From Candidatus Omnitrophota bacterium (GTDB lineage Bacteria; Omnitrophota; Omnitrophia; Omnitrophales; JACROU01): a stretch of 64,000 bases of DNA. The notes under the pieces are model-generated. The model had not been told where the DNA came from. It ran no database searches and saw nothing but the letters and a program-made list of their open reading frames with translations. The position numbers were made by a program, and so were the translations under genes. Shown in pieces: positions 6,826 to 47,068 of the stretch. The DNA is taken from NCBI GenBank assembly GCA_029261035.1, contig JAJDCD010000023.1:1-64000 (forward strand), read 5' to 3'. The stretch's first letter is position 1; each line of letters begins with the position of its first letter.

Positions 6826-9800
6826 ATGAAAAGAATTAAAATTTTATCTATATTAATGAGCATGGTATTTGTTATGCAGACAGTTATTATTTCTCCTGTG
6901 ACAGCAAATCCAGAAGCATCAACTTTAGGAATTAAAATTTCTCCACAATTGGCTACAGTTAATATGTATGCCTCTAAACATTCTGAAGGCAAGAAAGTTT
7001 TCTTTATTCAGGATGCACATTCTAATTATGAAGCACAACAAAAAGTGAGAGATATTTTAAAAGAAATGGTTCCTCAACTTAAAACCCAAACAGTTTTGGT
7101 TGAAGGAGCGACGAAGTCTTTAGAACCGCGTGTTTTTGATTTTTCTGATTCCGAGATTATAAATAAGCAGGTTGCAGAAAAGTTGGCTCAAAAAGGGTTG
7201 GTTAATGGGGCGGAGCTTTTTATGTTGGAGCCTGAGGCTAAGGATGTCTCCTTTTTAGGCTTGGAGAAAGCGGAGCTTTATACTCAAGAGCGTGTCGCTT
7301 TTATGAATGTGATTCAATTGAAGAGTGAAACAACTCGTTTTATTTCTTTACTCGAAAGTCGTTTGGATGCCCTAAAAGCTCGAGTGTTTAATAGTAAGCT
7401 TAGAGAGTTAGATCGTAAATTTTCTGATTACAAAAAGAAAAAGATTTCTTTGCTGGCCTGGTTTCGTGCGTTAGATGCTATGACCTTAAAGAACCTGATA
7501 TACCCTTTAAATGATCCAAAGAACATCCGGGATTATCCCAACTTAGTACGTCTTGCCATCAGTAATGAAGCGTCCACACAAATAAGAACAGACCTTTTAG
7601 CAAAAGAGAAGAAAGAGCTTACGACTCTTTTGGCCACATACCCCGAACAACAACAGTTGCTTTCTTTGATAGGGACCAACCAAGTTTCTAGGATTAACGA
7701 AGAGAGTGTTGCGCGCCTTTTTGAAGTAGCAGAGAGCTTAGGCGTTGATTGGAATCAATTTTTGCATATAAGAAAGTCTTTTATTTCTCAGCTTCTAACT
7801 TCTGATATGGATGGAAACGAGCTGTTTAGAGAGATGGAGATTTTAAAAGAAAGCCTTTATTTTGAATTAGCAGAAACAGAAAAAGAGAAAAAGGTTATTC
7901 AATTAGAGCATGAGCTACGTATTCTAAAAGATCTTTTGTCCTTAGAATCCACCCGTGAGACGTGGAAAAAAATCTTGGCTGAACTTAGTCAAATCAGTCC
8001 TAACGACTGGATGCGCCGTTATCAAGAGTTGGAGTTAAGTTCTAAAGGGTTGGAGTTGGAACTGATGAAGAAAGCTCAGACGGCTTTTGAGAACGCCGTT
8101 CGTTTTTATGATTTTGCACGGGATCGTGAGCAAGTATTTGCTGAGCGTATTCGTCAAGCATTACAAAAAGAAAAAAGTGATTCTGTAATTGTGTTAAGTG
8201 GAGGGTTTCATACAGAAGGTTTGTATTTGGAGCTGATTAAAGATCCGATACAGTTTTCTGTGATTCAACCGCAGCTTAAAAGTAAAACGGATATTCAAAA
8301 CTATTATGATGCTGTTTTCGAATCCAGAGATTTGAGTTTTGTAACAGGTAAGATGGCAGCAGTTCCTTATGCAGAGCTAGACCCTGAGCAACCTGCGAAT
8401 GCTTGGGTACGCGCGCAGATTGCAACTGAACTTTTAAATGAAGTAAACACTGCAGAGTTTAATGAAGCCTACTTAAATCAAAACCCTCTATTTGAACGGG
8501 CTGGGGCCACAGTTGTTGTCGAAGAAGGAATCATTCGTCTGGAACAACAAGAAGCATCAAGCTTAGGATTTGATGGGAGTCGCTGGACTCAGGAGCTTAC
8601 AATTGCTGGTTTAAAAGGACAGATGCAAAAGCTCATTCAAGATGGATTTGGAACGGAAGGAACTAGTTTTGCTTTGGTTGAAAATCCAAATGATAAAACA
8701 AGTTCTCTTAATATTTCTGCCGAAAATAGACAAGTAGAAGTTTTTTATACAAAAGATAGAACAGTCAGAGATATTTTAGAAGCTTTAATTAATTATAGTC
8801 CTGCAAGCGATATCCCTGTGGTCTTTAGTGTTAAGTTGAACCAGCTTGCAGAAGAGTATTTTCCTGATCTTGCAAGAAGAAGTAAGGTGCCTACAGAAGC
8901 TCCAAAACCTAAAGAATCTGTTATCAAAAGCACTTCTACAGAATTGACTTTGGTAGATTTTGAAAAAGTAAGTGTAGACGGTATTGCTTTTAAACTGCAG
9001 CTTAATTTTTTGGTAACAACACCAAACCAAGTAGATGTAAGGTACATCCCTTTGGGTGGTAACAATGTCCAGATCACGGTTGAGTATGGGCCTAAGGCGG
9101 ATGCGAAAACCATTCTTAAAGCATTGCTCAACAACCCTCAAGTAAGAGATCGGGAAGATATCTATTCAGCATTTCAAGAATTGTCTCAAGCTCAAGCAAG
9201 CAGTTTGGGAGAGAATTTAAAAATATTATCGAATGCGGAAATTGTTTCTAAACTCAGTGCTGTCATTAATGAGAATAGGGTGGCTTCCACAAGAGTTACA
9301 CCACCTTTGGAGTTGGCTTTAATCACATCAGAAAATCAGACTCTAGGTAGACCTTCTACTATTAGTCGAAGTTATTTGAATTCGGATAAAATATTGGTAG
9401 AAAAAGTAACTGTTACAGCTCATCCTCAGGAATCTATTTTGGTAATTGCTAAATCTATAGAGAGCTATCCACTTAGAGTTAGAAATGCATCTTCAGCAAT
9501 GCCTTTGGATGTTCGTTCTGCTTTTTCGAGCCTAGCACAAGGAAAAAGCAAAGTTATTGCTACTCAGGAATTGCCAGAAAGTGTTAGAGCGAAGTTGGCT
9601 GAGGTTATAGATGCGTCTAGTATTTCCGAAGTAAGTGCTGAAAGTTCTGTTCCGGTGGCCGTTTCTCCAGAATCGAAAGCTAAACCTATAGCATTAGATG
9701 TTCAAAATCTTTCAACGCCTCTTTCTAGTGCAAATGAAACAATACAAGCATTAACAGCTGTTGGGAGTCAGCCTCAACTAGCAATAGGTGCATCTATTCA

Positions 9801-11532
9801 TTTTTCCCCTAATTTGCTTTTTGCTTTAGCGCCTCGACCTGTGAGTCCTGATGGAACTTTTGTTCAAGATGAAGCTATTTCTCGTGTTGCACTTCCAGAG
9901 GTTAAAGTAGCTCCAGGGCTTCTAGTTCAAGAGAATTCATCGTTCAATGTTACTGCGACTCCTGCATTAGTGCCGGTGATGCCAGGAAAAAGTATTTTAC
10001 CAGTAAACCCAACGCGCTTTTTTATTGGGGAAAATTTAAATGTTGTTGGAGAAACTCAAATTAGTTTGGGACAAAACTCAGTTCTTATTATTGGGAATAA
10101 TGTAAGACTAGAAAACTTACGGTTAAATGTGGGTGATAATCAAAGGCTTGTTATAGGAGATAATGCGGTTCTTTCTGGAGTGCTTATTTTATTTCCTTTG
10201 GACAATAGAGCCCGAGAACCATTTACTACGGAGACCACAACGAGTCCCTCTTTACCTCTGGCGGTGATATCATCAAACACACAAGCTGCTTTGAATTTGC
10301 CTTCTGTTGCCGTTGAGGCTAGCGGCCAGCTGCTAATCCCTGAGGGAAATACAAATGTGAGTTTTCCTGAAGTTATTGTGGGTCAGGATACTCAAGCAAC
10401 TGTTAATCCATCCACTGGCGAAGTGGATACAAGTGTTCCTGATGCAGAGCTTGTTTTACAAGCGCGTAGTTTGGGGTTCCCTCAAGCTGGATTGCCGCTA
10501 CCAACGGTGAATCGTGTTATACCCAACCCTCGTTTCCCAACAACTCCTAATTTTCCGACGGCAGATCGCATTGCACAGCTGGGTGGCGTCGTAAGCACTC
10601 CAGAGAGTTTTCTGGAATACTTGTCTTTGTTTAGAGCTACCATTCCAAATAAGCGATTCACTCTTGAAGAGCAAGTAGCGTTAGCGGAAGTGGCTTTAGA
10701 AGATTCAAGATTTGTGAACCCTTTGATTGCAGATGGAATCATTCGTATTGGTTTACAAGATCCCTCAGTGCAGCTTCAGAACATGGAGACAAGCTTGGGA
10801 CGTGTTCAAACTAATTTGCAAACAGAAATTTTAAAAGCAGTGATTTTGAAACTCAAAAATAATCGAGTTTCGGTTACTTTGGCCTTGAGTGATCCGAGTA
10901 GTGTCTTTTCATTAAACAACGATGCTTACAAACAAGCGGTTGAATTTCATCTTCAGAATAATCCAAATGCAACTTTTCAATTTGTCCATTTAGGCTCTGC
11001 TGAGGATATAGAAAAAATTGATGAGCAGTTTTATCGATTTGGAGAACGTTTTAAAGTTATCCCCGCCACGTCTCAAAATTGGCAAATAGCGTTAAAAGGA
11101 CTTATGGGAGAAGAGTTGTTGCAAGTGGTGCGACGCTTGCCTGCAGGTTTACCGATTAAAACATTACAGCAACTTTATGGGAATAAACACATTTCTGTTT
11201 TATTACCCGCTCCAGCTTGGAAACAGAATGTTGAGCTGCCTAGTGAGTCTATTGTTAAAGTAAGTTCACTAGCTCAGGATACAGACTTTTTTCAGAATGC
11301 AGACCAGAACTACGGTATCGTAAATGACGTTGCTTTCTTGGAAATTAGTTTGGCACAATTAGTTTCGCTTTTTGAAGGTAAAAATTTAGAATTGAGACAA
11401 GTTATTCCTGGGGAAGTTTTTATTTATGCAGATAATTTCTTCAGTTTAAATCGAGATCAAATGCTTCAAGGGCTCATTGATGATATTCATGAGCAAGCGA
11501 TCCAACTACAACGCTTGGCATATCAGGCATAG
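6826..11532 (+). CDS. Giant secreted protein 1 with shared DAH/GGFH N-terminal domain
   Basis: A 1568-residue protein I do not recognise as a named family. A Sec signal (MKRIKILS, then a hydrophobic run, cut likely after VTA near 27) is followed by the domain shared by all four giants: QDAH at 62-65, VEGA at 92-95, a LGLEK..LY motif near 145, and GGFH near 460. This looks like the ChaN/TraB/Tiki-type fold (inference). Beyond it, two related domains of about 100 residues at roughly 585-690 and 700-790 each pair a beta strand with TVRDILEAL or DAKTILKAL. A long Ser/Ala/Val-rich stretch follows, then a beta-helix-like segment near 1090-1125 with repeated IGDN-type turns. SLG motifs lie near 579, 794, 1215 and 1323. 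The final 245 residues resemble the tails of the other giants. Probably extracytoplasmic; function unknown. Confidence 0.8.
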   Translation: MKRIKILSILMSMVFVMQTVIISPVTANPEASTLGIKISPQLATVNMYASKHSEGKKVFFIQDAHSNYEAQQKVRDILKEMVPQLKTQTVLVEGATKSLEPRVFDFSDSEIINKQVAEKLAQKGLVNGAELFMLEPEAKDVSFLGLEKAELYTQERVAFMNVIQLKSETTRFISLLESRLDALKARVFNSKLRELDRKFSDYKKKKISLLAWFRALDAMTLKNLIYPLNDPKNIRDYPNLVRLAISNEASTQIRTDLLAKEKKELTTLLATYPEQQQLLSLIGTNQVSRINEESVARLFEVAESLGVDWNQFLHIRKSFISQLLTSDMDGNELFREMEILKESLYFELAETEKEKKVIQLEHELRILKDLLSLESTRETWKKILAELSQISPNDWMRRYQELELSSKGLELELMKKAQTAFENAVRFYDFARDREQVFAERIRQALQKEKSDSVIVLSGGFHTEGLYLELIKDPIQFSVIQPQLKSKTDIQNYYDAVFESRDLSFVTGKMAAVPYAELDPEQPANAWVRAQIATELLNEVNTAEFNEAYLNQNPLFERAGATVVVEEGIIRLEQQEASSLGFDGSRWTQELTIAGLKGQMQKLIQDGFGTEGTSFALVENPNDKTSSLNISAENRQVEVFYTKDRTVRDILEALINYSPASDIPVVFSVKLNQLAEEYFPDLARRSKVPTEAPKPKESVIKSTSTELTLVDFEKVSVDGIAFKLQLNFLVTTPNQVDVRYIPLGGNNVQITVEYGPKADAKTILKALLNNPQVRDREDIYSAFQELSQAQASSLGENLKILSNAEIVSKLSAVINENRVASTRVTPPLELALITSENQTLGRPSTISRSYLNSDKILVEKVTVTAHPQESILVIAKSIESYPLRVRNASSAMPLDVRSAFSSLAQGKSKVIATQELPESVRAKLAEVIDASSISEVSAESSVPVAVSPESKAKPIALDVQNLSTPLSSANETIQALTAVGSQPQLAIGASIHFSPNLLFALAPRPVSPDGTFVQDEAISRVALPEVKVAPGLLVQENSSFNVTATPALVPVMPGKSILPVNPTRFFIGENLNVVGETQISLGQNSVLIIGNNVRLENLRLNVGDNQRLVIGDNAVLSGVLILFPLDNRAREPFTTETTTSPSLPLAVISSNTQAALNLPSVAVEASGQLLIPEGNTNVSFPEVIVGQDTQATVNPSTGEVDTSVPDAELVLQARSLGFPQAGLPLPTVNRVIPNPRFPTTPNFPTADRIAQLGGVVSTPESFLEYLSLFRATIPNKRFTLEEQVALAEVALEDSRFVNPLIADGIIRIGLQDPSVQLQNMETSLGRVQTNLQTEILKAVILKLKNNRVSVTLALSDPSSVFSLNNDAYKQAVEFHLQNNPNATFQFVHLGSAEDIEKIDEQFYRFGERFKVIPATSQNWQIALKGLMGEELLQVVRRLPAGLPIKTLQQLYGNKHISVLLPAPAWKQNVELPSESIVKVSSLAQDTDFFQNADQNYGIVNDVAFLEISLAQLVSLFEGKNLELRQVIPGEVFIYADNFFSLNRDQMLQGLIDDIHEQAIQLQRLAYQA

Positions 11533-11534
11533 AT

Positions 11535-11641
11535 TCCCCCTGTCTCGTACGTAGTCGTTCGAGGGGGCTGTCATTCTGAGCGTAGCAAAGAATCTTGGGG
11601 TTTTAATTTGCTAAAGATCCTTCGCTACGCTCAGGATGACA
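11535..11641. repeat. Hairpin plus TGTCATT/ATGACA inverted repeat after giant gene 1
   Basis: Just after the stop codon, CCCCC...CGAGGGGG (about 11535-11566) can fold as a hairpin that may help terminate transcription. It is followed by a miniature inverted repeat at 11569-11641 with arms TGTCATTCTGAGCGTAGC and GCTACGCTCAGGATGACA. The arms resemble other TGTCAT-ended repeats at 15875, 47137 and 58221. The rest of the gap up to 11818 is A+T-rich and holds TATACT near 11733, a possible -10 for the next gene without a clear -35. Confidence 0.7.
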
Positions 11642-11818
11642 ACTAGAATTTAATTTTTCCCATATGCTATGGACTAAGTAACATCGACCTTTTTTACAGA
11701 CTTCTAACTTTCAGCCAACCTTTTTTTACTATATACTATCTTTAATAATTATTATTATGTAGAGGACTTTTTTAGAAATGGGATTCTATCCGCTCTACAC
11801 AAATAAATGAGGTAAATC

Positions 11819-12706: not shown

Positions 12707-12737
12707 TAGGTAAGTGGGATGTGTTCTCTGTTCGTCG

Positions 12738-12808
12738 TCGGAATGGTTTTGGTTCGGCGCTCAGACAGCACAAAAGTGACTGTCACCTTAGGTGACTGTC
12801 ACTTTTGT
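12738..12808 (+). repeat. Partial three-hairpin repeat (left arm) carrying the GTGACTGTCAC palindrome
   Basis: CGGAATGG and GGCGCTCAGACAGCAC match the left half of hairpin 1 in the complete copies, but the right arm is missing. Its apical part is a long hairpin, CAAAAGTGACTGTCACC-TTA-GGTGACTGTCACTTTTG (12771-12807), with a single central mismatch. Copy F at 52662 has the same kind of apical insert. Confidence 0.75.
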
Positions 12809-12827
12809 TAATGGGTACAGCCTATCC

Positions 12828-12899
12828 TTTGTCTAGGGGACACGCACTTTTGGCACAATTGCTTTCGCAATAGTTCCAAAAATCCATGTCCCCGACTTC
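12828..12899. repeat. 72-bp hairpin repeat, copy 1
   Basis: TTTGTCTAGGGGACACGCAC, CACAATTGCTTTCGCAAT and ATGTCCCCGACTTC form an imperfect hairpin (GGGGACA against TGTCCCC, with an inner AATTGC-TTT-CGCAAT). A close second copy is at 47260-47332. Copy 1 lies 60 bases before the DUF309 gene and copy 2 lies beside the alcohol dehydrogenase stop, so no common regulatory role is evident. Confidence 0.75.
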
Positions 12900-12955
12900 G
12901 ACTTCGTTTCTTTAATATTTTTAGCGATTTGCTAAAAGCGATGTAAAAAAAATGA

Positions 12956-13324: not shown

Positions 13325-13366
13325 TTTTTTAAAGGATTTACGCTATTTACAAGGAAGTACTGTTAT

Positions 13367-14152: not shown

Positions 14153-14159
14153 AAGATTT

Positions 14160-18833: not shown

Positions 18834-19658
18834 CTATTCGCCAAGTTCTACTAAAGCAGCTTTTAGCTCATCGTCTGTAGGAGCCACACCATGAAAATGA
18901 TTGTTGTGTTCCATGAAGGAAACCCCTTGTCCTTTGACGGTATGTGCAATAATAATTTGAGGTTTATCTTCTACGGTTCGTGCCCATTCAAAAGCACTTA
19001 GAATTTCACTGGTATTGTGGCCGTTAATTTCGCGGACAGCAAATCCAAAGGCGCGCCATTTTTCATCCATAGGGTGCATATCTAAGACGACTTTAACTGA
19101 GTCATCAAGTTGAAATTTATTATAATCTAAGATGACACAAACATTATTCAGTTTGTGGAACGCGGTAAACATGGCGGCTTCCCAAACTTGTCCTTCATTA
19201 CATTCTCCGTCACCTACCATGACGTAAGTGCGGTAATCTTTTTTTGCCATGCGAGCAGCTAAAGCATGTCCAATTCCGATGGAGAGCCCTTGTCCCAAAG
19301 AACCTGTCGAGGCTTCAATACCTGGAAGGGACGTTACAACAGGGTGTCCTTGGAGACGGCTGTTTATTTGTCTAAGCGTTAAAAGCTCTTCCGTAGGGAA
19401 GTAACCACTTAAGGCAAGTGCAGCATAAAGCGCTGGTACTCCGTGCCCTTTACTAAAGATAAAACGATCTCTATCTTCCCATTCAGGGTTTTTAGGGTCA
19501 TGATTTAATTCATTAAAAAACAACGTTGCAATAATATCGGTTGCTGAAAGAGAGCTGCCAGGATGCCCTGAAGCTGCTTTGTGGATCATGCGTACAATTT
19601 CTCTACGCATAAGTAGAGCTTTTTCTTCAATTTGAGATATAGAGAGTTTTTCAGTCAT
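18834..19658 (-). CDS. Transketolase, N-terminal subunit
   Basis: The thiamine-diphosphate-binding half of a split transketolase (about 274 residues). Visible marks are SGHPGSSLSATDIIATLFF near 35, with the His that contacts substrate, SKGHGVPALYAAL near 73, and the ThDP/metal motif GDGECNEGQVWEA near 152, equivalent to GDG-x(22-28)-N, with LDYNKFQ supplying the Asn. HNHFHGVAPTDDEL lies near the end. Split transketolases are common in archaea, thermophiles and uncultured phyla. I prefer ATG 19658; an in-frame GTG at 19667 would add three residues, and neither has a strong ribosome site. It is the first gene of a probable operon with the C-terminal half and ilvD. Confidence 0.93.
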   Translation of the reverse strand: MTEKLSISQIEEKALLMRREIVRMIHKAASGHPGSSLSATDIIATLFFNELNHDPKNPEWEDRDRFIFSKGHGVPALYAALALSGYFPTEELLTLRQINSRLQGHPVVTSLPGIEASTGSLGQGLSIGIGHALAARMAKKDYRTYVMVGDGECNEGQVWEAAMFTAFHKLNNVCVILDYNKFQLDDSVKVVLDMHPMDEKWRAFGFAVREINGHNTSEILSAFEWARTVEDKPQIIIAHTVKGQGVSFMEHNNHFHGVAPTDDELKAALVELGE

Positions 19659-19770
19659 AGTCTTCACTTGTTTTGTAGAGTTAAAAGGCCGTAAAAAAGA
19701 GCCCCAATCATACTAAAAATACATCAAAAAAACAACGTAAAAACCAACCTTTTTGAGGGGTTTATGGAGA

Positions 19771-33100: not shown

Positions 33101-34758
33101 GAAAACCCCTCTATTAACTTTTGAACAATGAGTCCGATGTTTGGGGTTGGAGTCTTAAATGTTTGGGCAATTTCTCCCATGCTAGAACCCGTAGTTGTTA
33201 AATCTGTTTTCGCCAACTCTGCTAATAAAGAATCCCTGAAAGAGTCTGGATTTGACTTGATGGGCTTAAGAGCGGAAGGGAACCGGATCGTAGATTTATT
33301 TTCTAAGGGGGCCTTAAAGTGGAGTTTAAGCACGTTATCTTCTAAAGGAACTCGGTGGTCATGAGCGTGAGCCCATTGAGGGCTCCATTGGGAAGAAGAT
33401 ATATTGTATTGATTTAAGAAGTGCTTGATATGTAGCGTATGAAACCCGCCGGAGATAAGGATAGCCTTTTTTAACCCATTTTCCTTCATATAACTCACTA
33501 GGTTTTGTCCCATTATGAAACTACGTAATTCTGCAAAAGAATAAAAATTGTGCGCATTGATGAGGATGGGCTCGAGTTTATTTAAAAGGGTTAGGACTTG
33601 GGTTTCTTTAGAGGGTAGTAAAGATAGGTCTGAGATTAATTTTGCCAACGAATGTTTTTGTTCCAGAGAATGTAGCAAATCTTTTTCTTGAGCTGTTAGT
33701 TCTCCAAGGCACATTTTTCTTGTTAAATGGAGTTGCCACTTTAAATAAGTGTAGATTTTCTGTTCTTTATTTTGGGCGAGAGCAAGGTGGAGTTTCCAAA
33801 TCAAAGTTTCAATTTCGCTAAATAGAGAAGAGCTCACATTTGTTTGAAGCATGTCTGTAATTTCTTTTTTTATTTTTATTTGTGGATAAGAAGAGATATC
33901 TACCTTATGTTTCATTGCAAGTTCGTGCCATAACACAATGGGGTCTGTTTCGGTTTCTTGACGGAGGTATTTTTTTTCTAAAGGAGTTAACAGGGGTGAT
34001 AATTTTATTTTTAGTTGTTTTAACTCTTGATTCATAACAGGAATATTCATCTCTTGAAAAGAAGCCATAATTTGTCGGAGTTGAAAATAACTGTTTTCAG
34101 CTTTGATATATATCCGTTTCCAACGGATTAAAGGATCTGTTTTCTCATACCAATGGAGAAGAGTTATTTTGCCTTCAATTAGTTTTTGGTAATTATTGAG
34201 AACGGTTTTCATCGTTTTGTGGTTATTAGATTTAAAAGGCTCTGCTAAAAGGGATTCAAGCTGATTGAGTTTTCTAATGGCGTCATATTTATTCTGAAGT
34301 AATTGTTGATATTGACTTAAATTTTGAGAATAGATTTTCTTATCTTCAATACCGTAGAGAGTGAAGGGAAGGGGGCTTTGAAAATAAGCATGCTCTGCAG
34401 CTCCCAACGTCCCTTCTTTTACAAATGAATTAATTGCAGTCATGAGATTTTTTTCAGAACTAAGCTGTTTATAGGTTTCCCCGTCAATGAGGCCGGAAGC
34501 CCCTTCCATTCCAACTAGGAGGATATTTTCTTCGGAAACGAGGTTGACAATCTGTTGGGATAATTGTTCCTGAGCAGCCAAGGATGTGTGAGCATCTTCT
34601 AGAATGTAAATGGATATATCCGAAGAATAGGGTTCTGGACTATGAGGTGCTAAGGTGTTTTCTTGGGAAAACCCCTGGGGTGTGGGCCCTAAAATGAAGA
34701 TTATTGCCAAGATCAAACAGCAATATTTATCTAAGAGTACCCATGTCCGCTTTTTCAC
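30160..34758 (-). CDS. Giant secreted protein 3 with shared DAH/GGFH N-terminal domain
   Basis: About 1532 residues, not a named family. I chose the GTG at 34758 because AAGGA lies 7 bases upstream and translation then starts KKRTW followed by a hydrophobic CLILAIIFILG, a clean Sec signal; an ATG at 34785 would add nine residues without a ribosome site. The shared domain shows EDAH near 50, MEGASGL near 84, YGIEDKKIY near 136 and GGFH near 438. Downstream is mostly predicted soluble alpha/beta sequence without a motif I can name. An SSMG motif occurs near 525 and AKSLG near 1300, the latter opening a C-terminal region of about 230 residues that ends in a helix finishing TSA. It is tandem with giant gene 2 but separated by a strong hairpin. 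Extracytoplasmic; role unknown. Confidence 0.78.
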   Translation of the reverse strand: MKKRTWVLLDKYCCLILAIIFILGPTPQGFSQENTLAPHSPEPYSSDISIYILEDAHTSLAAQEQLSQQIVNLVSEENILLVGMEGASGLIDGETYKQLSSEKNLMTAINSFVKEGTLGAAEHAYFQSPLPFTLYGIEDKKIYSQNLSQYQQLLQNKYDAIRKLNQLESLLAEPFKSNNHKTMKTVLNNYQKLIEGKITLLHWYEKTDPLIRWKRIYIKAENSYFQLRQIMASFQEMNIPVMNQELKQLKIKLSPLLTPLEKKYLRQETETDPIVLWHELAMKHKVDISSYPQIKIKKEITDMLQTNVSSSLFSEIETLIWKLHLALAQNKEQKIYTYLKWQLHLTRKMCLGELTAQEKDLLHSLEQKHSLAKLISDLSLLPSKETQVLTLLNKLEPILINAHNFYSFAELRSFIMGQNLVSYMKENGLKKAILISGGFHTLHIKHFLNQYNISSSQWSPQWAHAHDHRVPLEDNVLKLHFKAPLENKSTIRFPSALKPIKSNPDSFRDSLLAELAKTDLTTTGSSMGEIAQTFKTPTPNIGLIVQKLIEGFSPKDSIGDTVLFENMGVGEEWPINSMYTEKSTEEVLRLLIPTSYFSTLVAAQYTNLVSQMNYNKSKNVIYSDVLLFVLYELLQELSQVDMDQFEEKREQLQSTFDSNHPPYVLVENSNIVLFGVKEQQGFHFSKFRAHWQGFWGKDQKIISNLFFESLLKKFPQIFEDETLTVELSYNAGDNVSEKIRQEIKKLEGKAIILFGYQPGRTSKAGGIDVLLQDQEDEIAKSPGNKVLTFSVTTPKEKPKTLRELDEILEEVKFALGAFIAFGNNLDPALKAYQQMSSSEDASLQMLRLTERGLITQTQSAMNQILRTVAEGKQDTLNQKAVNRLLLSPASRLFNEKPGNERSDWNEALVDFVNMLIRIQNKRLEEDQKLSLLPKEKVLENNELVSTLWELFHPSSPWNIQLNISPVENEAQKIIDFKFSDMQIRKSTNELDELKESFDYVIVGPFTFISIHPFLQLTNPTNNYAVYRIHKPSTGKEEALLIEDPLERTILSAALLSNRFMLGENYPSRLRLDSGYLEVDEVDPIQEIKSLHSQILDRANTTVIHEGAKSQVSKIRRMSEEDAELFKPIRARKTPTRNSDFRNKWERRKWENRVALSIVLQTPPSSFQESSAIKNSSTNLDFWARQAVRAQQNPNASFVHNKETNEISVTFASRSGIVLSESGVKFIIEGNLSQMSFYQSQVLGFKHQGLYLLASAFSFLESDSAPEQIKYSDIYLSWRPYLAASYKKAWNSSSKAKSLGVPILETKTIPTIQTSLYLDSFLSANRFQQNRNQVSSIVGQQEGPYELLVFWSALKKGILFSDLSLLLSSIEGLSITVVDDDLSREEIINELYQRDPEGLLQKHITQKQLIIPENPKLELQLKKSASKIKPIYHKYSPSFIGVVFNDQSATGNINVSEISSRAPKAMKFVAQGELDLGVISRSVFALIKGNVEGLFNQNYQGGLGIWVLSRPTEALLNQLMARFATQIALQTSA

Positions 34759-34886
34759 TATAGTATCCTTATAAGTTAAAACCATTCAGGAAATGTACCA
34801 CAGAGAGCACCTAAACACAAACTAGATATTGGTTTACGTCTACAGTGCTAAGTCTTTTCCCAACAGTGCTTTATCTTATAGAAGTA

Positions 34887-38533: not shown

Positions 38534-41500
38534 ATGACTATGACACAGATTAAAAAACCCATATCCATCATTTTAGCTTTATGCTTTTTGTTTACCTTAG
38601 TACCGGCAGAGTCCGTCTACGCTAAGCATCCCCCTATTTACTTAAGTTCCGTTCCTGCGGTTCCAGAGGAGTGGGCTTCAGTAAAACGCTTTTCTCCTTC
38701 CAAAGCCTCTATGGGTAGAATCTATTTATTAGAAGATGCTCATGGTTACATTGAAGCACAAGAACGCGTTTTGGATTTGCTTTCCTTCCTGGAAGAAAAA
38801 ACCCAAGTAGAGCTGGTCGGTGTCGAAGGAAGCTCGGAAGATTTTAATCTATTACTCTTCAGAAGTTTTCCTAATCTAGAAAAGAAGAAAAGTTGGGTTC
38901 GAAACAAAGTGAGGGAAGGAGAACTTTCTGGGGCTGATGGTGCAGCGATTCTGAGCAACCAGCCCATGAAATACTTTGGTATTGAAGATGAGCAACTGTA
39001 TCAAAAAAACCTCAATCGTTACTTTGATGTTCAACAACAAAAACCAAATAAGCAAATAGAGGCATTCGAAGAAAAACTGGATAAACAGTTATCTAGTAAA
39101 CTGTCAACCACACTTCTAGAAGTTTTGAATTTAGAAGAAAGACTGCTTCATCAAGACCAGGCTCCCTATGAATGGATGAAACAACTTTGTTCTTATCAAG
39201 AAATACTTCAGGCACCTAAGAAGTTATCTCATATCTTTTCTCTCATCAAGCGTACTGAAAACGATGAAAACTTCCACGAACCACTTCCAAAACTCGAACC
39301 AGAAATATTTTTAGAAATAAAGGATTACTTTACCGAATTAAAACAAAAACTGATTCGGAGTGAAGATGAGGCAAACTTACTTAAAAGAAGAGACCAGTTT
39401 TTAAGACTAAAACAGTTGCGTGACTTAAAACTAACACGTCAAGAGTGGGAAAATTTAAACAAAGATTTTGATGAACTTAGGGAGTTTTTTGAGATTCAAC
39501 GTTCTTATTACCAAACAGCCATTAAACGAGAACGATCTTTTGTTAAAAGTGCTCTAAATCAAATGGAAAGCACAAAACAGAAGGAAACCATTCTTCATGT
39601 TGGGGGTTTTCATACCCAAGGCTTAAAAGAAGCATTTTTGAATAAGAACTATGAAGTTGTTCAAATAACGCCAAAGTGGAAAAAAGAAAGAGAAAGCACA
39701 TATCAAGAAAGAATGAATTTGATTGCAAGCAGCAAGAGTTCCTTGAAAGAACCTTCTCTTGTGGGTGCCAACCTTTTAAGAGGCAGGGTCGAAGGAGATG
39801 TTCTGCAAGATTGGCTGAGTCATAACAATGCGGTTGAGTGGGGAGTTCAACTTATTTTTTCTGCTTATCGTTTGAGACAACATAAAGAAAAAAAGCTATT
39901 TGATTTGTTGGACAGGCTCACGAATCATTTAGATTCCACCACACCACGCCACGAAGGTGTAGCGTCAGCGAAAAACGGTGGATCAGTTCTAAAAGGAACA
40001 GAAAAGCTAATGACTAATGGTTATGAGTTGACCGCTAGTTTAAGTGAAGATGAAAAGGTTGTTGGAGCCAGTTTAGGTGTGAAGTTTTCAGAGAAGAAGA
40101 TCTTGATTGGAAGAATAAGAACGGGTTTCAGACAAATTGAGGAAGGTAGAGTGGAAAGAGTGGAGATTGGAGATGTGAGTTTGATTGTGCAAAAGAAAAC
40201 AGGTAGAAGTAACCATTCTTTTCCAACTCCAGATGGAGATCGTGTTAGAAAGTCCGTTAATTTTATTGCTTATGAAAATTTAGATGTAATTGAACTTACT
40301 ATTGTTAAGGGTGTTGAAGGTCAAATTACTTTAGAATTTTCTCATCAGAAAAAAGGAGAGGAGCCGAAAGTATCCAAAGTCCTTTGGAATGGAAAAGAAT
40401 ACGAAAGGGTTCTCAATAATAAAGAAAAAGAAAAACAGGCATTAATCAAAAAAATTAGAAAAGCATATCAGCAGATTAAAAGCGGAGCAGCAGAGGTAGG
40501 GGTTGGCGATATTGAGCCTTTGGTAAATCTAAAGTTTGGTTGGTTGTATAGAACATTTCCAACACCGGACGGAGGCGCTTTGAAAGATAAAAAGCCAGGT
40601 TTTAACGGTAGGAATATTAAGTCAATGGACCTTAAATTAATTGCCGCCGAGAACGGAGAAATTATTTTTGAACTGAGCTATGTAACAAAGTTGGGTGAAA
40701 CGGAAAAAACAATAATGTATTGGAAAGAGAATAGTTTGTTATCTGAAAAAGACTACCACTTAAACAAAATTATGAATGGGTTTAAGGACTTGAAAGCAGG
40801 TAACGAGAGAGTGCTTGTTGGAGGTATTGATTTTTTTGTGCGTAAGAAGCAAGGGGTCTTGTCTCATCTATTTCCTTCACCCGATGGGGAGCCTTTAGGA
40901 GAAGGGACATCTATTAGAAGTGGTCCTGATATTAAAACTCTCACATTATCTCTGCTAAAAGACAAAGCGAATCAAATATTTTTGGAGCTTCACTATACAA
41001 AAGAAAACGATGAAGAAGGGGTTTCAACACTTGTTTGGCATAACGGTAAGTATGTTCTTCCCATAAAACTACTGGATCAAAAATTCAGACAAGGTTTTTC
41101 AGATATTGAAGCAGGAGGAAGTAAGTTTGATATTGGAGAAGTTAGCCCTTTTTTTAACAAGGATTATGGTGTGTCTAGGCATACATTTCCTACTCCTAAA
41201 GGAACTGTTAAGAGAAATAGCCTTGTTCGTTTAGAGAAAAATCTGGACAGAGTAGAGCTTAAGCTTTTGAAAGTTGATGATGGGAGCCTTGTTCTTGAAT
41301 TTGAATATGAATTAAAAGGAGGGGCAAAGGGAAGTAAAAAAGTTTTTTGGAATGGAAGCAAATATGAAGCGGATGTAGAAAAAGCGGTTCGAAAAGTTAA
41401 AGAAGCATATAAAAAAGTTTATGCAGGAGAGCAAAAAGTAGTTATCGGTGATGCTAGTTTGTTAGTAAGTAAAGAAAGAGCTCATTTATATAGGGTATTT

Positions 41501-44500
41501 CCTATGCCTGATGGAAATCCACGAAGAGGATCACGTAATATTGGGATGCAATTGAATGTTCAGGAAATTGCTCTTACAGTACATCGGGGCGAGAACGGAC
41601 ATCCTACACTGGAATTTTTGTATAAAAAAGATGAAGAGGAGAAGATTCTTAAAATTTATTGGAATGGAACTTTATTTGAGACGGAAAAAGAACGGCTTAT
41701 CAACAAAATAAGAGCAGGGTTTGAACAGGTTAAAACACAGGGTCAAGAAGTTAGTATTGGTGATGTGAGTCTTCTTGTGAGTAAAACATCAGGAGGATTA
41801 CAAAAGACCTTCCCAACTCCGGATGGAGGACAAATAGACAAGCCAAAAAGATTTGGAATTAGTGAAGATTTGGAGCTGATAGAACTTACTATCGAAAAAG
41901 ATGCTCAGAGCCAAAACATTTTATTGAGATTTGACGCTAGAAAAGTAGGTGAAACTCGTTGGAGTAAACCTGTTGTTTTAGTTTGGGATGGTACAAAATT
42001 TACAACAGATCGAACTAAAAACGAAGTAAATAAAGAGTTAGTCGTACAAAAAATCAAAAATGCATTTCTTGAACTCCAAAAAGAAAAGAAGAGCATTGAC
42101 ATAGGAAATGTTACCCAACTGGTTGGATCTAAAGTAGGATACCTCTATAACATTTTCCCTACTCCGGACGGAAATAAAGTGGGAAAGCCAACAACTGTAG
42201 GTCTTGGCGTTAACATTGAATCAATTAGCCTAAAAATAGAAAAAGACGAGGAGCTTGTTTTAATATTTACTGTAAAGGGAAAAAATAAAGAGACAAAAGC
42301 AGTTCGTGTTTATTGGAATGGTAAAAATTATGAAAAAGAATATAGCCGATTTTTAAGAAAAGTAAGAGAAGGGTTTCGTCTGATTTCAAAATCTGGTACG
42401 ACAGTAGTTGAATTAGGAGATGTGAGTCGAATTGTGAATACGCAAGGAGGAACTGTTTATAAAACCTTCCCTACGCCGGATGGAGCTACTATAGGAAAGA
42501 ATTTCTCTTTAGGGACTGGGGGAAAGGTTCAAGGTATTGCGTTAACCTTAAGAAAAGAAATCAAAACTGGGAGAATATTGTTAGAGTTTAATTATACAAA
42601 AATAAAAACAAAAAATGTTTTAAGAACACAGACTCTTTATTGGAATCCAAAAATTAAAACTTATTTGCCTTATGTCAAAGAAACCCAACAAGAAGTTTAT
42701 GAATTTAATCTCGAGGATGAGTTTGACGGAGCAAGTTTGGGGGATCAGTTTGATCAAAAGAAATTCGTGATTGAGCGAATTCAAAAAGCATATAAGCAAA
42801 TTGCAGACGGGAAACAAAAGGTAGATGTTGGAGATGTTAGTGCTCTCATTGATTTAAAAAAGGGTTTGTTTATTCCCCGATTTCCTGCCCCTGATGGAAG
42901 TAAGAAGCATGGAGCTCAGGCAGTTGGAATAGGACATCATGTGAAGAGGGTTTTATTAACTTTGTTGAAGGAAAATGAGACCTTAGTTTTTAAATTCACT
43001 TATTTAAAAGAGGGTAGTAGTCAGTACCAGGAAACAAAATTGTATTGGAATGGAACTAATTTTCTTCTGACACCGAAGTGGACTAGAGTGAAAATTTATA
43101 ACGCATTTGATGCTATTAAGCCAGGAGAAACTATAAGCATTGGAGATGTTAGCTCTGTTACGAACAAAGAAAGGGGCTGTTTGCTTAAGACCTTTCCTCT
43201 TCCTAATGGAGGGCGCTTAGGGAAAAACCAAACCATTCTGAGTCAAAAGAATAATGATGTTATTAGTTTGAAAGTAATAAAAGAAACGGAAGAATTAATA
43301 CTGGAATTTAGTTATTCCTCAAAAAATGACAATAAAGTGAGGCGAACTCGAATTTATTGGAATGGTTCAGCGTATGAATTAGAGCAGGACTGGAAGATTC
43401 GAAGAATAAAAGAAGCTTATAAAAAACTAAAAGAAGGGGAAGTTAAAGATATTGGAGATGTGTCTTCCGTTATTAATATAGAACGGGGGCTATTTCAAAG
43501 TGCTTTCCCCACCCCTGATGGTAGAAGGATAAAAAAAGTTTATACAGCAGCAATAGGAGCTGATTCCAAACAAGTTTGGATGAGGGTCAGAAAAGAAAAT
43601 GGAGATTTAACCTTAGAGCTTGATTACGTGAAAGAGAAAGAGAAAGGAACGCAAATTTTATATTGGAACGGAAAAAAATTTGAAACGGATTTTGAAAGAA
43701 AAATACGAAATATTCAGGAAGGTTTTCAGCGTGTTCTAGAAGATAAGACTTCAGTTTTTTCTGTTTTAAATATTGATTTTTTAGTGAATCAGAAGTATGG
43801 ATACTTTTTGCGAAGGTTTCCAACTCCGAATGGGCGCCAAATTGGAAATGCAAAATTGCCAGGATTTGGATTGAATGTCAGAAACATACAGTTAGATGTT
43901 ATTAAAGAAGATAGTGAAATGGTGCTTAGCTTTAATTATGACAAAGAAGGAAAAGATACAAAAAGTACATTGAAACTGTATTGGGACGGACATAAGTATT
44001 TGTCCGAAGAAGAAAAAAAAGGCGAAAATAACTCAAAAGAAGTTTTGATTAGAAAGATTCGTAAAGGGTATGAAGTATTACAAAAAGACGAAAAACAAAG
44101 CATAGAAATAGGGGATATCTCTTTGCTTGTTAGCATGCAAAGAGGAAAATTCAGATCTTTCTTTCCTACTCCCGAAGGAGGGAAATTAAAAACTATGGCT
44201 TCGTTATATACAGGAGTGCGTTTAGAATCTTTAACATTAAACCTTAAAAGAGAGGGTGAGGATATCGTTTTAGAGCTTAGCTTTAAAAGACAGGGAGATA
44301 CTTCTTTGAAAAACATCCAGCTTTATTGGAATGGCACTGAATTTGAACAGTTTAAGGGAAAAAGAAGCAAGATGAATGAAAAGCAGGATTTGTTAAAAAG
44401 GATAGCGGATGGATTGAAGAAGGTTCGCAAGCAAGAAGAAGACACGGTTGACATTGGAGATGTTAGCTCTGTAATGAATATGAAGTTTGGTATGATTGCT

Positions 44501-47068
44501 ATGGTTTTTCCTGCCCCGAATGGAGGGAAAGTAGGTTTTCAAAAAACATTAGGTATGGGAAAAGTAGAAGTAATTACTTTAGAGATAACAAGAGAGTCAG
44601 AAGAGTTGGTTTTGCTATTTAAATATGAGGGAAAAAATAAGAATGGAATGGCTAAACTTTATTGGACAGGTCAGGAGTATGTAACAGGGCAGCAAAGACA
44701 GATGGAATTTGTGCGAACCAGTTACGAAAAGCTTGAAAGAGGGGATGAAGTAAGAATTCAAATAGAAGAGCATGAGTTTTTAATTAATAAAAGACATGGG
44801 TTTTTACAGGGAAGTTTTCCTACTCCTGATGGAAAAGAGATAGGAGAAATGTTGTTTCCATCTATGGGAGAAAATGTGGAGTATTTAGATTTTTTTCTAA
44901 TAAAAGAAGAAAGTACGATTTTACTTGAATTCCACTCACGTCAAAAAGGAAAAAAAGAAACGATTATTTCTAGACTTTATTGGAATGGAACAGAGTTTGA
45001 AAGTGATAAAGATATTGAGGTTGGAAAAATCAAAGAGGGGTTTGAATTTCTCTCAAGGGGAATACAGCAAAGGTTTAATGTTGGTCCCTTAAATGAATTG
45101 ATTTCTAAAGGATATGGGAAGCTTCAAGCTGATTTTCCCACCCCTGATGGCAATAAAGTAGGTAGGGTGAAGCCTATGAGCTTAGGACCGAATTTTAAAG
45201 AAATTAGTTTAGAAATATTATTAGAAGAAGGGCAAATAGTTTTGTTTTTTACTTATACAGGCGAAGGAGAAAAAGAGCAAAGGCAAGGAAAAATGTATTG
45301 GGTCCACGATAAGTATTTAACTGAAAAGGAGATGCAAAAACATCGATTAGCTGAAGCGGTTAAAGCGGTTTATAACGGAAGTTTAGATCAATATGAAGTT
45401 GAGGATGTAGTCCTTTATGTGAATAAATCAGTGGGACGACTTAACAGAAGCTTCCCAACTCCCGAAGATGGGGTCGTTGGTAAAATGAAAACAATCGGCA
45501 TAGGAAAGCCGAATGCAGAAGTGAAATTTACAGTTAAAAGAGATGTAAAAACTCAAAAGTTACAACTAGTCTTCAAGTACAGGAAAGAAGGAGAGGTGGG
45601 CTTTAGAGAGGGTCCTGTAATCTTAACTTGGAATGGAACAGAATATGAAACGCCCAAAGAGATAGAGTTGCGTTTAATTAGAGAGGGTTTCCAAACGATT
45701 CAGAATGGAAATCTGAAATCTGTAAGAGTAGGAGAGCTCAACGAATTAGTCTCAAAAGAATATGGAAAACTACAGGGAGATTTTCCTACTCCTGACGGAA
45801 ATAAGATTAAAAGAATAAAATCCTTACGGATGGGCCCTAAACATAGCTATATTGCTTTAGAAATTACCAAAGAAGAAGGTGGGATAGTTTTAATTTTTGA
45901 TTACATCTTGCATGGGACAGCGGAAATAAAAAAAGGGAAGCTTTATTGGATTGATGGCACTTATTTAACTGAAAAAGAGTTTCAAAAGCATAGATTAATT
46001 AAAGCGATTGATGACGTTAATAACGGAGCTCTTTCTTTTGCTGAAATAACAAAACTGGATTATTTTTTAAATTTTAATTATGGGGTTTTGAACGAGACAT
46101 TCCCAACTCCGATAGGAACGAAAATAGGAAAACAACAATCACTTGGAATAGGGGGTCTTCTGGAATCAGTGAAACTAATTGTAGAAAAGGAAATAAGGAC
46201 TCAAAGATTGTTGCTAAAGTTTATTTATAAACGGAAGGGAGAAGCTGATTATCATCCTGAACCCGTCATTTTGTTTTGGAATAAAAAAACAAACAAGTAT
46301 GAAAAATATGTTCGCGAAGTTCAACAAGATGTTTATGAATTTGATCCCAATGAGGAGTTTGAGGGAATGAGTTTGGGAACTCGGTTAGAACGTTACCCCA
46401 AACCAATTCAGGAGGCTTTAAGGCTTGTTAACTTTTTAGATCGAGAAAATATAAATTTAGATTTTTTAGGGCAATATGTGAAACAAATTAGAACGACTGT
46501 AGCGGATCCGTCTGTTTATCAAATTATGGATGTGGTTACGTTTAAAGATCGGATTCGAGATGAAGAGTCTTTGTTAAAGATGGTTCGTATGATTGAGGAT
46601 GGCGGAAAAATTGAAGTGGCTTATAGTGAAGAGGAGCGAGAAGAAGTTCGAGGTTTCTTGAAAAAAGGTGGCTTGCTTCATGGATCATTTAAACATTATT
46701 TCAGAGATGTTTTTGTCCCATACTCAGAATTAGGAAAATCGAATCTGTCTAATTTGATCAAGGTTGTGTTGGTTGATGAGAAGAATATGGGAAGATTGAA
46801 TCAGCTAGAAGAAGACTTTTTTAAGGTGGGTTATGAGAGTCGGTGGTTGGATTATATTCCTGGAATGACAAGCATGCTTTCCAATATCAGCATTGAGGCG
46901 GCTCGAATGAAACGAGAAGGAGTGCCAGATCAATTGGCCCAATATGTTCAAAGTTTTTATGAGACGGGAACAAGCTTCTCTCTTCAGGGAGGAGTCTTGT
47001 TTTTGGATGTGGTTGAAATGTTGAAGACGAGTATTGTAAGGGATCGAATGATTGCGAGGGCGGCGTAG
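38534..47068 (+). CDS. Giant secreted protein 4 with 19 FPTPDG repeats
   Basis: A 2844-residue protein with a Sec signal (hydrophobic SIILALCFLFTLV, cut near VYA at 32). The shared giant-protein domain follows: EDAH near 68, VEGS near 96, FGIEDEQLY near 150, GGFH near 357. A tandem array fills about residues 520-2595, with nineteen units of roughly 105 residues. Each has a helix (I..GF..I..G), V-x-I-G-D-V-S.LV, an aromatic-P-T-P-D-G turn and strands ending in YWNGT.YE. The array is split 8 + 11 by a boundary module (QQEVYEF...EFDGASLG near 1395-1405) that recurs at the end (QQDVYEF...EFEGMSLG near 2600-2612). A C-terminal region of about 230 residues closes it. I do not recognise the repeat; a surface or adhesive role is a guess. 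Flanked by direct repeats. Confidence 0.82.
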   Translation: MTMTQIKKPISIILALCFLFTLVPAESVYAKHPPIYLSSVPAVPEEWASVKRFSPSKASMGRIYLLEDAHGYIEAQERVLDLLSFLEEKTQVELVGVEGSSEDFNLLLFRSFPNLEKKKSWVRNKVREGELSGADGAAILSNQPMKYFGIEDEQLYQKNLNRYFDVQQQKPNKQIEAFEEKLDKQLSSKLSTTLLEVLNLEERLLHQDQAPYEWMKQLCSYQEILQAPKKLSHIFSLIKRTENDENFHEPLPKLEPEIFLEIKDYFTELKQKLIRSEDEANLLKRRDQFLRLKQLRDLKLTRQEWENLNKDFDELREFFEIQRSYYQTAIKRERSFVKSALNQMESTKQKETILHVGGFHTQGLKEAFLNKNYEVVQITPKWKKERESTYQERMNLIASSKSSLKEPSLVGANLLRGRVEGDVLQDWLSHNNAVEWGVQLIFSAYRLRQHKEKKLFDLLDRLTNHLDSTTPRHEGVASAKNGGSVLKGTEKLMTNGYELTASLSEDEKVVGASLGVKFSEKKILIGRIRTGFRQIEEGRVERVEIGDVSLIVQKKTGRSNHSFPTPDGDRVRKSVNFIAYENLDVIELTIVKGVEGQITLEFSHQKKGEEPKVSKVLWNGKEYERVLNNKEKEKQALIKKIRKAYQQIKSGAAEVGVGDIEPLVNLKFGWLYRTFPTPDGGALKDKKPGFNGRNIKSMDLKLIAAENGEIIFELSYVTKLGETEKTIMYWKENSLLSEKDYHLNKIMNGFKDLKAGNERVLVGGIDFFVRKKQGVLSHLFPSPDGEPLGEGTSIRSGPDIKTLTLSLLKDKANQIFLELHYTKENDEEGVSTLVWHNGKYVLPIKLLDQKFRQGFSDIEAGGSKFDIGEVSPFFNKDYGVSRHTFPTPKGTVKRNSLVRLEKNLDRVELKLLKVDDGSLVLEFEYELKGGAKGSKKVFWNGSKYEADVEKAVRKVKEAYKKVYAGEQKVVIGDASLLVSKERAHLYRVFPMPDGNPRRGSRNIGMQLNVQEIALTVHRGENGHPTLEFLYKKDEEEKILKIYWNGTLFETEKERLINKIRAGFEQVKTQGQEVSIGDVSLLVSKTSGGLQKTFPTPDGGQIDKPKRFGISEDLELIELTIEKDAQSQNILLRFDARKVGETRWSKPVVLVWDGTKFTTDRTKNEVNKELVVQKIKNAFLELQKEKKSIDIGNVTQLVGSKVGYLYNIFPTPDGNKVGKPTTVGLGVNIESISLKIEKDEELVLIFTVKGKNKETKAVRVYWNGKNYEKEYSRFLRKVREGFRLISKSGTTVVELGDVSRIVNTQGGTVYKTFPTPDGATIGKNFSLGTGGKVQGIALTLRKEIKTGRILLEFNYTKIKTKNVLRTQTLYWNPKIKTYLPYVKETQQEVYEFNLEDEFDGASLGDQFDQKKFVIERIQKAYKQIADGKQKVDVGDVSALIDLKKGLFIPRFPAPDGSKKHGAQAVGIGHHVKRVLLTLLKENETLVFKFTYLKEGSSQYQETKLYWNGTNFLLTPKWTRVKIYNAFDAIKPGETISIGDVSSVTNKERGCLLKTFPLPNGGRLGKNQTILSQKNNDVISLKVIKETEELILEFSYSSKNDNKVRRTRIYWNGSAYELEQDWKIRRIKEAYKKLKEGEVKDIGDVSSVINIERGLFQSAFPTPDGRRIKKVYTAAIGADSKQVWMRVRKENGDLTLELDYVKEKEKGTQILYWNGKKFETDFERKIRNIQEGFQRVLEDKTSVFSVLNIDFLVNQKYGYFLRRFPTPNGRQIGNAKLPGFGLNVRNIQLDVIKEDSEMVLSFNYDKEGKDTKSTLKLYWDGHKYLSEEEKKGENNSKEVLIRKIRKGYEVLQKDEKQSIEIGDISLLVSMQRGKFRSFFPTPEGGKLKTMASLYTGVRLESLTLNLKREGEDIVLELSFKRQGDTSLKNIQLYWNGTEFEQFKGKRSKMNEKQDLLKRIADGLKKVRKQEEDTVDIGDVSSVMNMKFGMIAMVFPAPNGGKVGFQKTLGMGKVEVITLEITRESEELVLLFKYEGKNKNGMAKLYWTGQEYVTGQQRQMEFVRTSYEKLERGDEVRIQIEEHEFLINKRHGFLQGSFPTPDGKEIGEMLFPSMGENVEYLDFFLIKEESTILLEFHSRQKGKKETIISRLYWNGTEFESDKDIEVGKIKEGFEFLSRGIQQRFNVGPLNELISKGYGKLQADFPTPDGNKVGRVKPMSLGPNFKEISLEILLEEGQIVLFFTYTGEGEKEQRQGKMYWVHDKYLTEKEMQKHRLAEAVKAVYNGSLDQYEVEDVVLYVNKSVGRLNRSFPTPEDGVVGKMKTIGIGKPNAEVKFTVKRDVKTQKLQLVFKYRKEGEVGFREGPVILTWNGTEYETPKEIELRLIREGFQTIQNGNLKSVRVGELNELVSKEYGKLQGDFPTPDGNKIKRIKSLRMGPKHSYIALEITKEEGGIVLIFDYILHGTAEIKKGKLYWIDGTYLTEKEFQKHRLIKAIDDVNNGALSFAEITKLDYFLNFNYGVLNETFPTPIGTKIGKQQSLGIGGLLESVKLIVEKEIRTQRLLLKFIYKRKGEADYHPEPVILFWNKKTNKYEKYVREVQQDVYEFDPNEEFEGMSLGTRLERYPKPIQEALRLVNFLDRENINLDFLGQYVKQIRTTVADPSVYQIMDVVTFKDRIRDEESLLKMVRMIEDGGKIEVAYSEEEREEVRGFLKKGGLLHGSFKHYFRDVFVPYSELGKSNLSNLIKVVLVDEKNMGRLNQLEEDFFKVGYESRWLDYIPGMTSMLSNISIEAARMKREGVPDQLAQYVQSFYETGTSFSLQGGVLFLDVVEMLKTSIVRDRMIARAA
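40084..46320 (+). repeat. Coding tandem array: 19 units of about 310-340 bp
   Basis: FPTPDG-like turns are encoded near 40219, 40557, 40870, 41187, 41500, 41813, 42153, 42472, 42886, 43195, 43506, 43820, 44164, 44507, 44819, 45135, 45453, 45783 and 46100. Spacing is 309-343 bp except for 414 bp between units 8 and 9, where the boundary module is inserted. Variants include FPSPDG, FPMPDG, FPAPDG and FPTPEG. The DNA copies are well diverged, so this is an old array. Confidence 0.88.
45018..46310 (+). repeat. Duplicated two-unit block within the array (units 16-17 and 18-19)
   Basis: Units 16 and 18 share NELIS/NELVS, YGKLQ.DFPTPDGNK and YLTEKE.QKHRL. Units 17 and 19 share a diverged start (YVN or FLNFNYG), V-K-R/K-E-x-x-T-Q-K/R-L and PVIL.WN. 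The most economical reading is duplication of a roughly 650-bp two-unit block after the array formed. Confidence 0.75.

Follow-up and report, generated by a model that had tools for sequence, protein, structure and literature searches.

The four giant secreted proteins encoded in a 64,000-nucleotide stretch of a Candidatus Omnitrophota bacterium genome (GenBank assembly GCA_029261035.1, contig JAJDCD010000023.1, positions 1 to 64,000; hereafter the window) share an N-terminal domain that sequence comparison and structure modeling place in the TIKI/EreA/ChaN hydrolase superfamily as a new family. Judged by sequence, this N domain is the standard module right past the signal peptide in a large family of exported giants of Omnitrophota. 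The cargo behind it is parted by recurrent pentapeptides, to which we refer as punctuation. With a probability of about 50%, we favor the interpretation that the giants are exported, modular, polyprotein-like chains that are processed or recognized at these tags and carry a TIKI-type hydrolase at their head.

An earlier reading of the window (the original prediction) had proposed a shared, metal-dependent and possibly peptidase-like domain defining a secreted giant-protein family. The four open reading frames (ORFs) lie where it had placed them, and the motifs it listed run in one order and in matching alignment columns, with L.LT..E...L kept only loosely. Pairwise phmmer comparisons of the N-terminal regions of giants 1–4 gave E = 1e-22 to 3e-11, a sequence similarity far past chance that marks the four regions as homologous. 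Because the identity of the other N domains to that of giant 1 is only ~20%, their likeness is easily overlooked without common columns. The invariant columns, found in 82 domains across the phylum, are D38, H40, A45, Q46, E68, G120, R409, G434, G435, H437 and P457 (giant 1 domain numbering; adding 25 gives protein numbering). Giant 2 departs from the pattern, with D-P-H instead of D-A-H and a longer gap to its Glu. The homology, the common columns and two like folds, described below, bear out the proposed family. The giants, their N domains and the putative active-site positions are as follows.

6826–11532, plus strand: giant 1, 1568 amino acids (aa); signal-peptide-like N terminus, TIKI/ChaN-like domain, cargo, C-terminal tag
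6901–8385, plus strand: giant 1 predicted N-terminal TIKI/EreA/ChaN-like domain, residues 26–520
7012–7020, plus strand: giant 1 D63-A-H65, predicted first active-site motif (paralogs: H65 in 45/45, D63 in 39/45)
7102–7104, plus strand: giant 1 E93, 28 residues past H65 (45/45 paralogs; spacing alike in RRSP and Bcr135)
8125–8127, plus strand: giant 1 R434, 28 residues ahead of the late His (44/44 aligned paralogs; compare RRSP Arg-4001)
8200–8211, plus strand: giant 1 G459-G-F-H462, predicted late active-site motif (GG and H in 44/44 aligned paralogs)
19771–29967, minus strand: giant 2, 3398 aa; N domain, then five protein kinase modules
28318–29880, minus strand: giant 2 predicted N-terminal TIKI/EreA/ChaN-like domain, residues 30–550
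30160–34785, minus strand: giant 3, 1541 aa
33346–34674, minus strand: giant 3 predicted N-terminal TIKI/EreA/ChaN-like domain, residues 38–480
38534–47068, plus strand: giant 4, 2844 aa; N domain, 19 FPxPxG repeats (~104 aa each), C-terminal tag
38633–39763, plus strand: giant 4 predicted N-terminal TIKI/EreA/ChaN-like domain, residues 34–410
38735–38743, plus strand: giant 4 D68-A-H70, predicted active-site column
39602–39613, plus strand: giant 4 G357-G-F-H360, predicted active-site column

No Pfam or NCBIfam model covers the N-terminal region of the giants. Giant 1 gave a sub-threshold match to ChaN (PF04187) over its GGFH end, at 14.3 bits against a cut-off of 27.7, and the same family matched the N domain of five giants encoded in other genomes, with 20.4–25.5 bits (E 1e-5 to 4e-4), again below the cut-off. 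True members of PF04187 and PF05139 in Omnitrophota were too few to serve as alignment partners, and searching the domain profile against the sequences of solved structures returned only helical chance matches, e.g., calmodulins and troponins. We therefore rely on AlphaFold2 models built from the 82-sequence alignment for two of the four copies, giant 1 (predicted local distance difference test score 90.4) and giant 4 (86.7). Modeled separately, the two share one fold, and equivalent strands carry the motifs; this is the fold comparison that the original prediction had put forward. Foldseek alone found a weak best match to EreC (E 0.011). With the VIA aligner, ChaN (2g5g; Z 9.6 and 8.8 for the two models), HopBA1 (5t09; Z 9.6 and 9.1), EreC (6xcs/6xcq; Z 8.2–9.6) and Bcr135 (2rad/3b55; Z 7.9–8.4) were among the top rows for both models, and RRSP (5w6l) aligned to the giant 4 model with Z 7.2. 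In both models, the invariant residues lie at the ends of adjacent strands: D-A-H follows core strand 1, VEG strand 2, GxE strand 3 and GGFH strand 4.

HopBA1, Bcr135, ChaN and RRSP are members of the TIKI superfamily; the active site of RRSP consists of Glu-3900-x-His-3902, Glu-3930 and His-4030, with Arg-4001 required, and that of Bcr135 has His-85 and Glu-113 (PMC6254334). The N-domain pattern is D-x-H(28)E...R(28)H. Its His-to-Glu gap of 28 residues is the same in RRSP, Bcr135, giant 1 and giant 4, and the distance from Arg to the late His is 28 residues, compared to 29 in RRSP. The 2His/2Glu set (E-x-H, Glu at +28 and a late His) thus has its apparent counterpart in D63-A-H65, E93 and H462 of giant 1, with Asp as the first acid. 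Apart from the Asp (39/45), the predicted active site is kept in every aligned paralog, suggesting that each giant needs the enzyme. Since the pattern resembles that of TIKI endopeptidases, the possible peptidase-like role proposed earlier is reasonable, and the proposed kinship with ChaN, TraB and Tiki agrees with the fold matches and with the PF04187 matches in the five giants elsewhere. Metal dependence, in contrast, is unsupported: RRSP is metal-independent and Tiki needs metal within one superfamily (PMC6254334), and motifs cannot reveal metal use.

Among the nearest known systems is the TIKI/EreA/ChaN superfamily (ChaN 2g5g, HopBA1 5t09, EreC 6xcs/6xcq, Bcr135 3b55, RRSP 5w6l, Tiki and TraB). 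Like its members, the N domain is predicted to have a parallel beta-sheet core with invariant residues at strand ends, a D/E-x-H motif, a Glu 28 residues later, and a late His preceded by an Arg at ~28 residues. Unlike them, it carries an all-helical insertion of up to ~260 residues between Glu and Arg, has Asp as its first acidic residue, falls under the PF04187 cut-off and heads exported giants.

A profile of the four N domains found 57 matches in the genome of the window itself, which merged into 45 genes; the four giants first noticed are all real, and four is an undercount. These 45 domain-headed genes encode ~139,600 residues and take up 15% of the assembly (2.70 Mb). Our contiguous sample was 424 kb (the window and the next 360 kb), and elsewhere we used matched stretches. 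Genes were called mechanically throughout, and long giants were read partly, at 20 kb per stretch. Of 20 ORFs of at least 1000 aa in the 424-kb sample, 14 have the N domain, three lack it and have punctuation and the C-terminal end, and three look ordinary. The three giants without the domain are adjacent (G000:C16:204493-228490; L149, L150) and are 2064, 2784 and 1938 aa long. Each has a signal peptide, ~25 residues, an SLG motif (ASSLG, AASLG or AKSLG), cargo and the usual C-terminal end.

The same profile search, which the original prediction had also put forward, returned matches across Omnitrophota genomes. The N domain is present in 54 of 58 relatives (1 to 40 matches per genome; open frames reach 35,113 codons) and in 143 of 285 genomes sampled across the phylum. 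Among the best 80 named loci, 79 are titled Omnitrophota, Omnitrophica or Omnitrophus and one is titled 'Bacterium'. We found no match in the plasmid collection searched. The viral collection gave one match (L246, IMG/VR contig IMGVR_UViG_3300045144_000334), possibly a piece of an Omnitrophota genome assigned to viruses in error. In some families, the only copy of the domain is a stand-alone one of 520–550 aa. At four loci (L108, L129, L133 and L138), a stand-alone secreted N domain of 516–532 aa is encoded 3–55 bases upstream of another, large secreted ORF, and domain and cargo can therefore be separate polypeptides.

A hydrophobic N-terminal segment is present in 45 of 46 giants, and most have no internal transmembrane (TM) segments, both as called by a hydropathy criterion and not a trained predictor. 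Cysteine is nearly excluded from these proteins, at 37 in 143,085 residues (0.026%), compared to 0.4% for the remaining secreted-like genes on the same contig and 1.3% for its cytosolic-like genes; 23 of the 46 have none. Giants of sister families contain 0.00–0.15% Cys, and those of the more distant genomes G048 and G057, where no punctuation was found, 0.35–0.45%. In the giants of genome G003 (L257–L259), cargo Cys is 0.02% and neither known punctuation motif occurs; a third motif may exist there. The giants also share a short, hairpin-helix-like C-terminal end: 36 of 46 end in AA and 45 in A (6/271 and 20/271 among controls). A profile of this end matches the C termini of giants elsewhere and hardly any internal segment. 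We considered whether internal module ends resemble the C-terminal tag and rejected this, as the profile was found in 1 of 208 segments preceding a motif.

On translating the giants, a recurrent ASLG-like word surfaced. The 46 giants (145,155 residues) contain 173 copies of the form A.SLG and other genes (85,226 residues) contain five; the consensus is [VSAI][ESKQ][AG][SAQKN]SLG. Of 228 copies of [AG].SLG, 227 are in cargo and one is within an N domain, with a median spacing of ~400 residues. The original prediction had described the cargo as unrelated between the giants; this is mostly so, with the exception of the C-terminal end and the [AG]xSLG punctuation, which are common to all four. Beyond these two features, it had missed the ~45-fold expansion, the phylum-wide spread and the exclusion of cysteine. 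Motif and tag positions in the window are listed below.

8554–8568, plus strand: giant 1 ASSLG, first past the N domain
9196–9210, plus strand: giant 1 ASSLG
10462–10476, plus strand: giant 1 ARSLG
11350–11532, plus strand: giant 1 C-terminal tag region, ending ...LAYQA
20878–27732, minus strand: giant 2, five kinase modules, ~residues 746–3030 (Pfam Pkinase E 1e-157)
27724–27738, minus strand: giant 2 ANSLG, ahead of kinase 1
26662–26676, minus strand: giant 2 GFSLG, ahead of kinase 2
25426–25440, minus strand: giant 2 degenerate motif ANALG, ahead of kinase 3
24160–24174, minus strand: giant 2 AQSLG, ahead of kinase 4
22015–22029, minus strand: giant 2 AQSLG
21850–21864, minus strand: giant 2 AESLG, ahead of kinase 5
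20680–20694, minus strand: giant 2 ASSLG, past kinase 5
19771–19953, minus strand: giant 2 C-terminal tag region, ending ...LVAVMA
33175–33189, minus strand: giant 3 degenerate motif GSSMG, past the N domain
30862–30876, minus strand: giant 3 AKSLG
30160–30342, minus strand: giant 3 C-terminal tag region, ending ...ALQTSA
40064–40078, plus strand: giant 4 GASLG
42728–42742, plus strand: giant 4 GASLG
46364–46378, plus strand: giant 4 GMSLG
46886–47068, plus strand: giant 4 C-terminal tag region, ending ...MIARAA

The punctuation falls between modules. In giant 2, an SLG or ALG motif lies 11–19 residues ahead of the glycine loop in all five kinase modules. Within this one genome, where motif copies share ancestry, the SLG motif lies inside stretches common to giants 65 times, compared to 225 expected, and adjoins the starts of such stretches 47 times, compared to 17 expected. 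In 14 giants, no motif of 99 fell inside a Pfam-matched domain (9.9 expected; 1 of 2000 simulations as low), at a Pfam coverage of ~9% of the scanned cargo. A recurrent site at module boundaries, which is a trait of polyproteins, is thus present in the giants.

We rejected a universal punctuation motif, as SLG is absent from the giants of other lineages; searching these brought up RSExR and [ML]LAP. In genome G021, 48,918 residues contain 80 copies of RSE[LVAI]R, which is also found in G032 and G018, and RSEAR/RAEVR is the punctuation word of G004. Like SLG, RSE.R is a cargo feature, with 136 copies in cargo and none in N domains. In locus L237 of G018, a complete transketolase stands between two RSExR sites and begins 1–5 residues past the first. 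This transketolase (residues 1371–2094) has a housekeeping relative in the window, the transketolase half at positions 18834–19667. In the L084–L132 lineage, [ML]LAP lies near the N-domain end in most giants.

At the DNA level, the 228 motif copies comprise 213 distinct 15-base sequences, and the motif DNA word is enriched in frame only, not in other frames and not antisense. The varied codons and frame specificity led us to reject an origin as a DNA word for uptake or recombination; selection acts on the motif in the protein. Its Ser is encoded by AGY in 77% of copies here, compared to 36% for other S-L-G, and by TCN in 97% of copies in G021. As AGY and TCN are not interchangeable in one step, the codon sequences suggest that each lineage has long kept the motif Ser under purifying selection and that the two motifs arose separately.

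The cargo is diverse. Protein kinases are found in giant 2, and two more at C24:210-219 kb; the other modules include PPDK/PEP-utilizing domains, an ARMT1-like phosphatase, an AprA-like methyltransferase and a metallophosphatase; DnaJ, HTH, LRR, HEAT and HD domains, a response regulator and a transketolase; and a glutamate dehydrogenase-like domain, a PLP enzyme, a sugar kinase, PP2C and dockerin. Because many of these modules use ATP or cytosolic substrates, their presence suggests that cargo acts inside a partner or prey cell, or moonlights at the surface.

Based on these features, we hypothesize that each chain runs from an export signal through a TIKI-type domain and ~400-residue cargo modules to a short C-terminal tag ending in AA. 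The chain would be exported and kept Cys-free for export, and a protease would recognize the pentapeptides, so that modules are freed or loosened outside the cytoplasm. The TIKI-type domain may be catalytically active as a hydrolase, plausibly of the endopeptidase type, with either its own chain or a shared surface target as substrate. It is a candidate for the processing enzyme, which could serve the three giants with sites and no domain only in trans. The odds stand slightly against the broader proposal of order-wide export of Cys-free, TIKI-headed polyproteins, tens per genome and a large share of the coding capacity, that are cut at AxSLG or R[SA]ExR into free enzymes (kinases, transketolases and others) working outside the cell or in partner or prey cells.

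Several points weigh against the interpretation of the giants as TIKI-headed, polyprotein-like chains. VIA Z scores of 8–10 are moderate, the first acidic residue of the N domain is Asp in place of the Glu of RRSP, and the proposed equivalence of its residues to those of RRSP is drawn from spacing and alignment. The punctuation motif varies by lineage (SLG or R[SA]ExR), and none was found in the N-domain lineages G048, G057 and G003. Three giants of the same genome have punctuation and the C-terminal end and lack the N domain, showing that the domain is not needed in cis for the punctuation. Finally, cleavage at the motif and catalytic activity are parts that we infer, as are the export route, the substrate and delivery into or onto other cells.

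Instead of being cut, the pentapeptide could be a binding or docking tag by which modules are gripped by a carrier or surface scaffold, leaving the giants as intact multi-enzyme surface chains. The position of the motif between modules, its protein-level conservation and lineage specificity, and the dockerin domains in one giant of the RSExR lineage are all compatible with this alternative, which we consider possible but doubtful. Cleavage seems to us a little more probable than docking: the sites are short and sit within hydrophilic linkers, and in this genome S-L-G is preceded by two small residues with one position between them ([VSAI]x[AG]), features that look more like those of a protease site.

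With respect to the N domain, ChaN is a top structural match and PF04187 is the sole Pfam family with repeated weak matches that agrees with the fold, so the domain might be a ChaN-kind binding domain for haem or another ligand, serving as an anchor or signal with no catalysis. We judge this unlikely: the catalytic His/Glu/His and Arg do not vary among 82 diverse domains and persist in every aligned paralog of the genome, a set that exceeds what a scaffold needs. Still less probable is that the giants are long adhesins or surface coats, with an N domain that merely aids export and decayed enzyme-like modules. An adhesin reading of the phylum's giant ORFs has been published (PMC10066038) and giant 4 has repeats, but the giant 2 kinase modules mostly retain HRD/DFG-like motifs and Pfam matches to the transketolase, PPDK and dehydrogenase modules remain strong. 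That the punctuation is a scar of module shuffling, left by DNA-level recombination or an uptake sequence, is very improbable given its sequence diversity and in-frame enrichment, even if the AGY bias implies that many copies share descent.

The preferred interpretation of processed or recognized modular chains recalls several known systems. As in MARTX toxins, several enzymatic modules sit on one exported chain, and RRSP, a TIKI-fold endopeptidase, is itself a MARTX effector. Unlike MARTX toxins, the giants have an N-terminal signal peptide, pentapeptides between modules and a TIKI domain that is always N-terminal, and the MARTX cysteine protease is impossible in nearly Cys-free chains. RTX type I secretion substrates have no N-terminal signal peptide, unlike the giants with their hydrophobic N termini. 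Viral and prohormone polyproteins likewise have modules parted by short recurrent linker sites; the giants differ in being bacterial and exported, at ~45 chains per genome, with putative cleavage.

Within the phylum, 'Ca. Velamenicoccus archaeovorus' of Kizina et al. 2022 reportedly also has very long ORFs. Giant ORFs >20 kb have been counted in several Omnitrophota classes by Seymour et al. 2023, and those of Velamenicoccia were termed poorly conserved, with few annotated domains (PMC10066038). Unlike these described ORFs, which often have TM helices, the giants reported here share the N domain, punctuation, Cys exclusion and a C-terminal end, and most lack internal TM segments. A survey of huge proteins notes the phylum with no COG assignment (PMC11573180). 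The literature searched contained no description of the domain, no polyprotein reading of the giants and no RSELR in the sense of punctuation, consistent with the novelty claimed by the original prediction; parts of the architecture could be described in a preprint outside the literature covered, which deals with giant genes of predatory bacteria and is cited by PMC12057145. As far as these sources reach, the N domain forms a new family within a known superfamily, and the architecture with punctuation appears undescribed.

The shared N domain, punctuation code, C-terminal signature and Cys exclusion turn opaque giant ORFs into a defined, searchable family, giving proteins thought to have little in common shared, testable parts. 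Punctuation provides exact cut points for expressible modules, and the shared features lead us to expect machinery dedicated to export and processing. Should processing occur, free-living bacteria would have a polyprotein economy, which might also be a toolkit for nanobacteria living as predators or symbionts.

We sought operon partners beside the window giants and found housekeeping genes. HExxH zincin-like motifs number 30 in the giants of the 80 phylum loci, about ten times the 2.9 expected. The repeats of giant 4, which matched no Pfam family with confidence, span ~residues 563–2523, and FPxPxG is usually followed downstream by a YWNG-like motif. Seven FPxPxG motifs of a similar kind occur in a second giant of the genome (C16:280558-294198).
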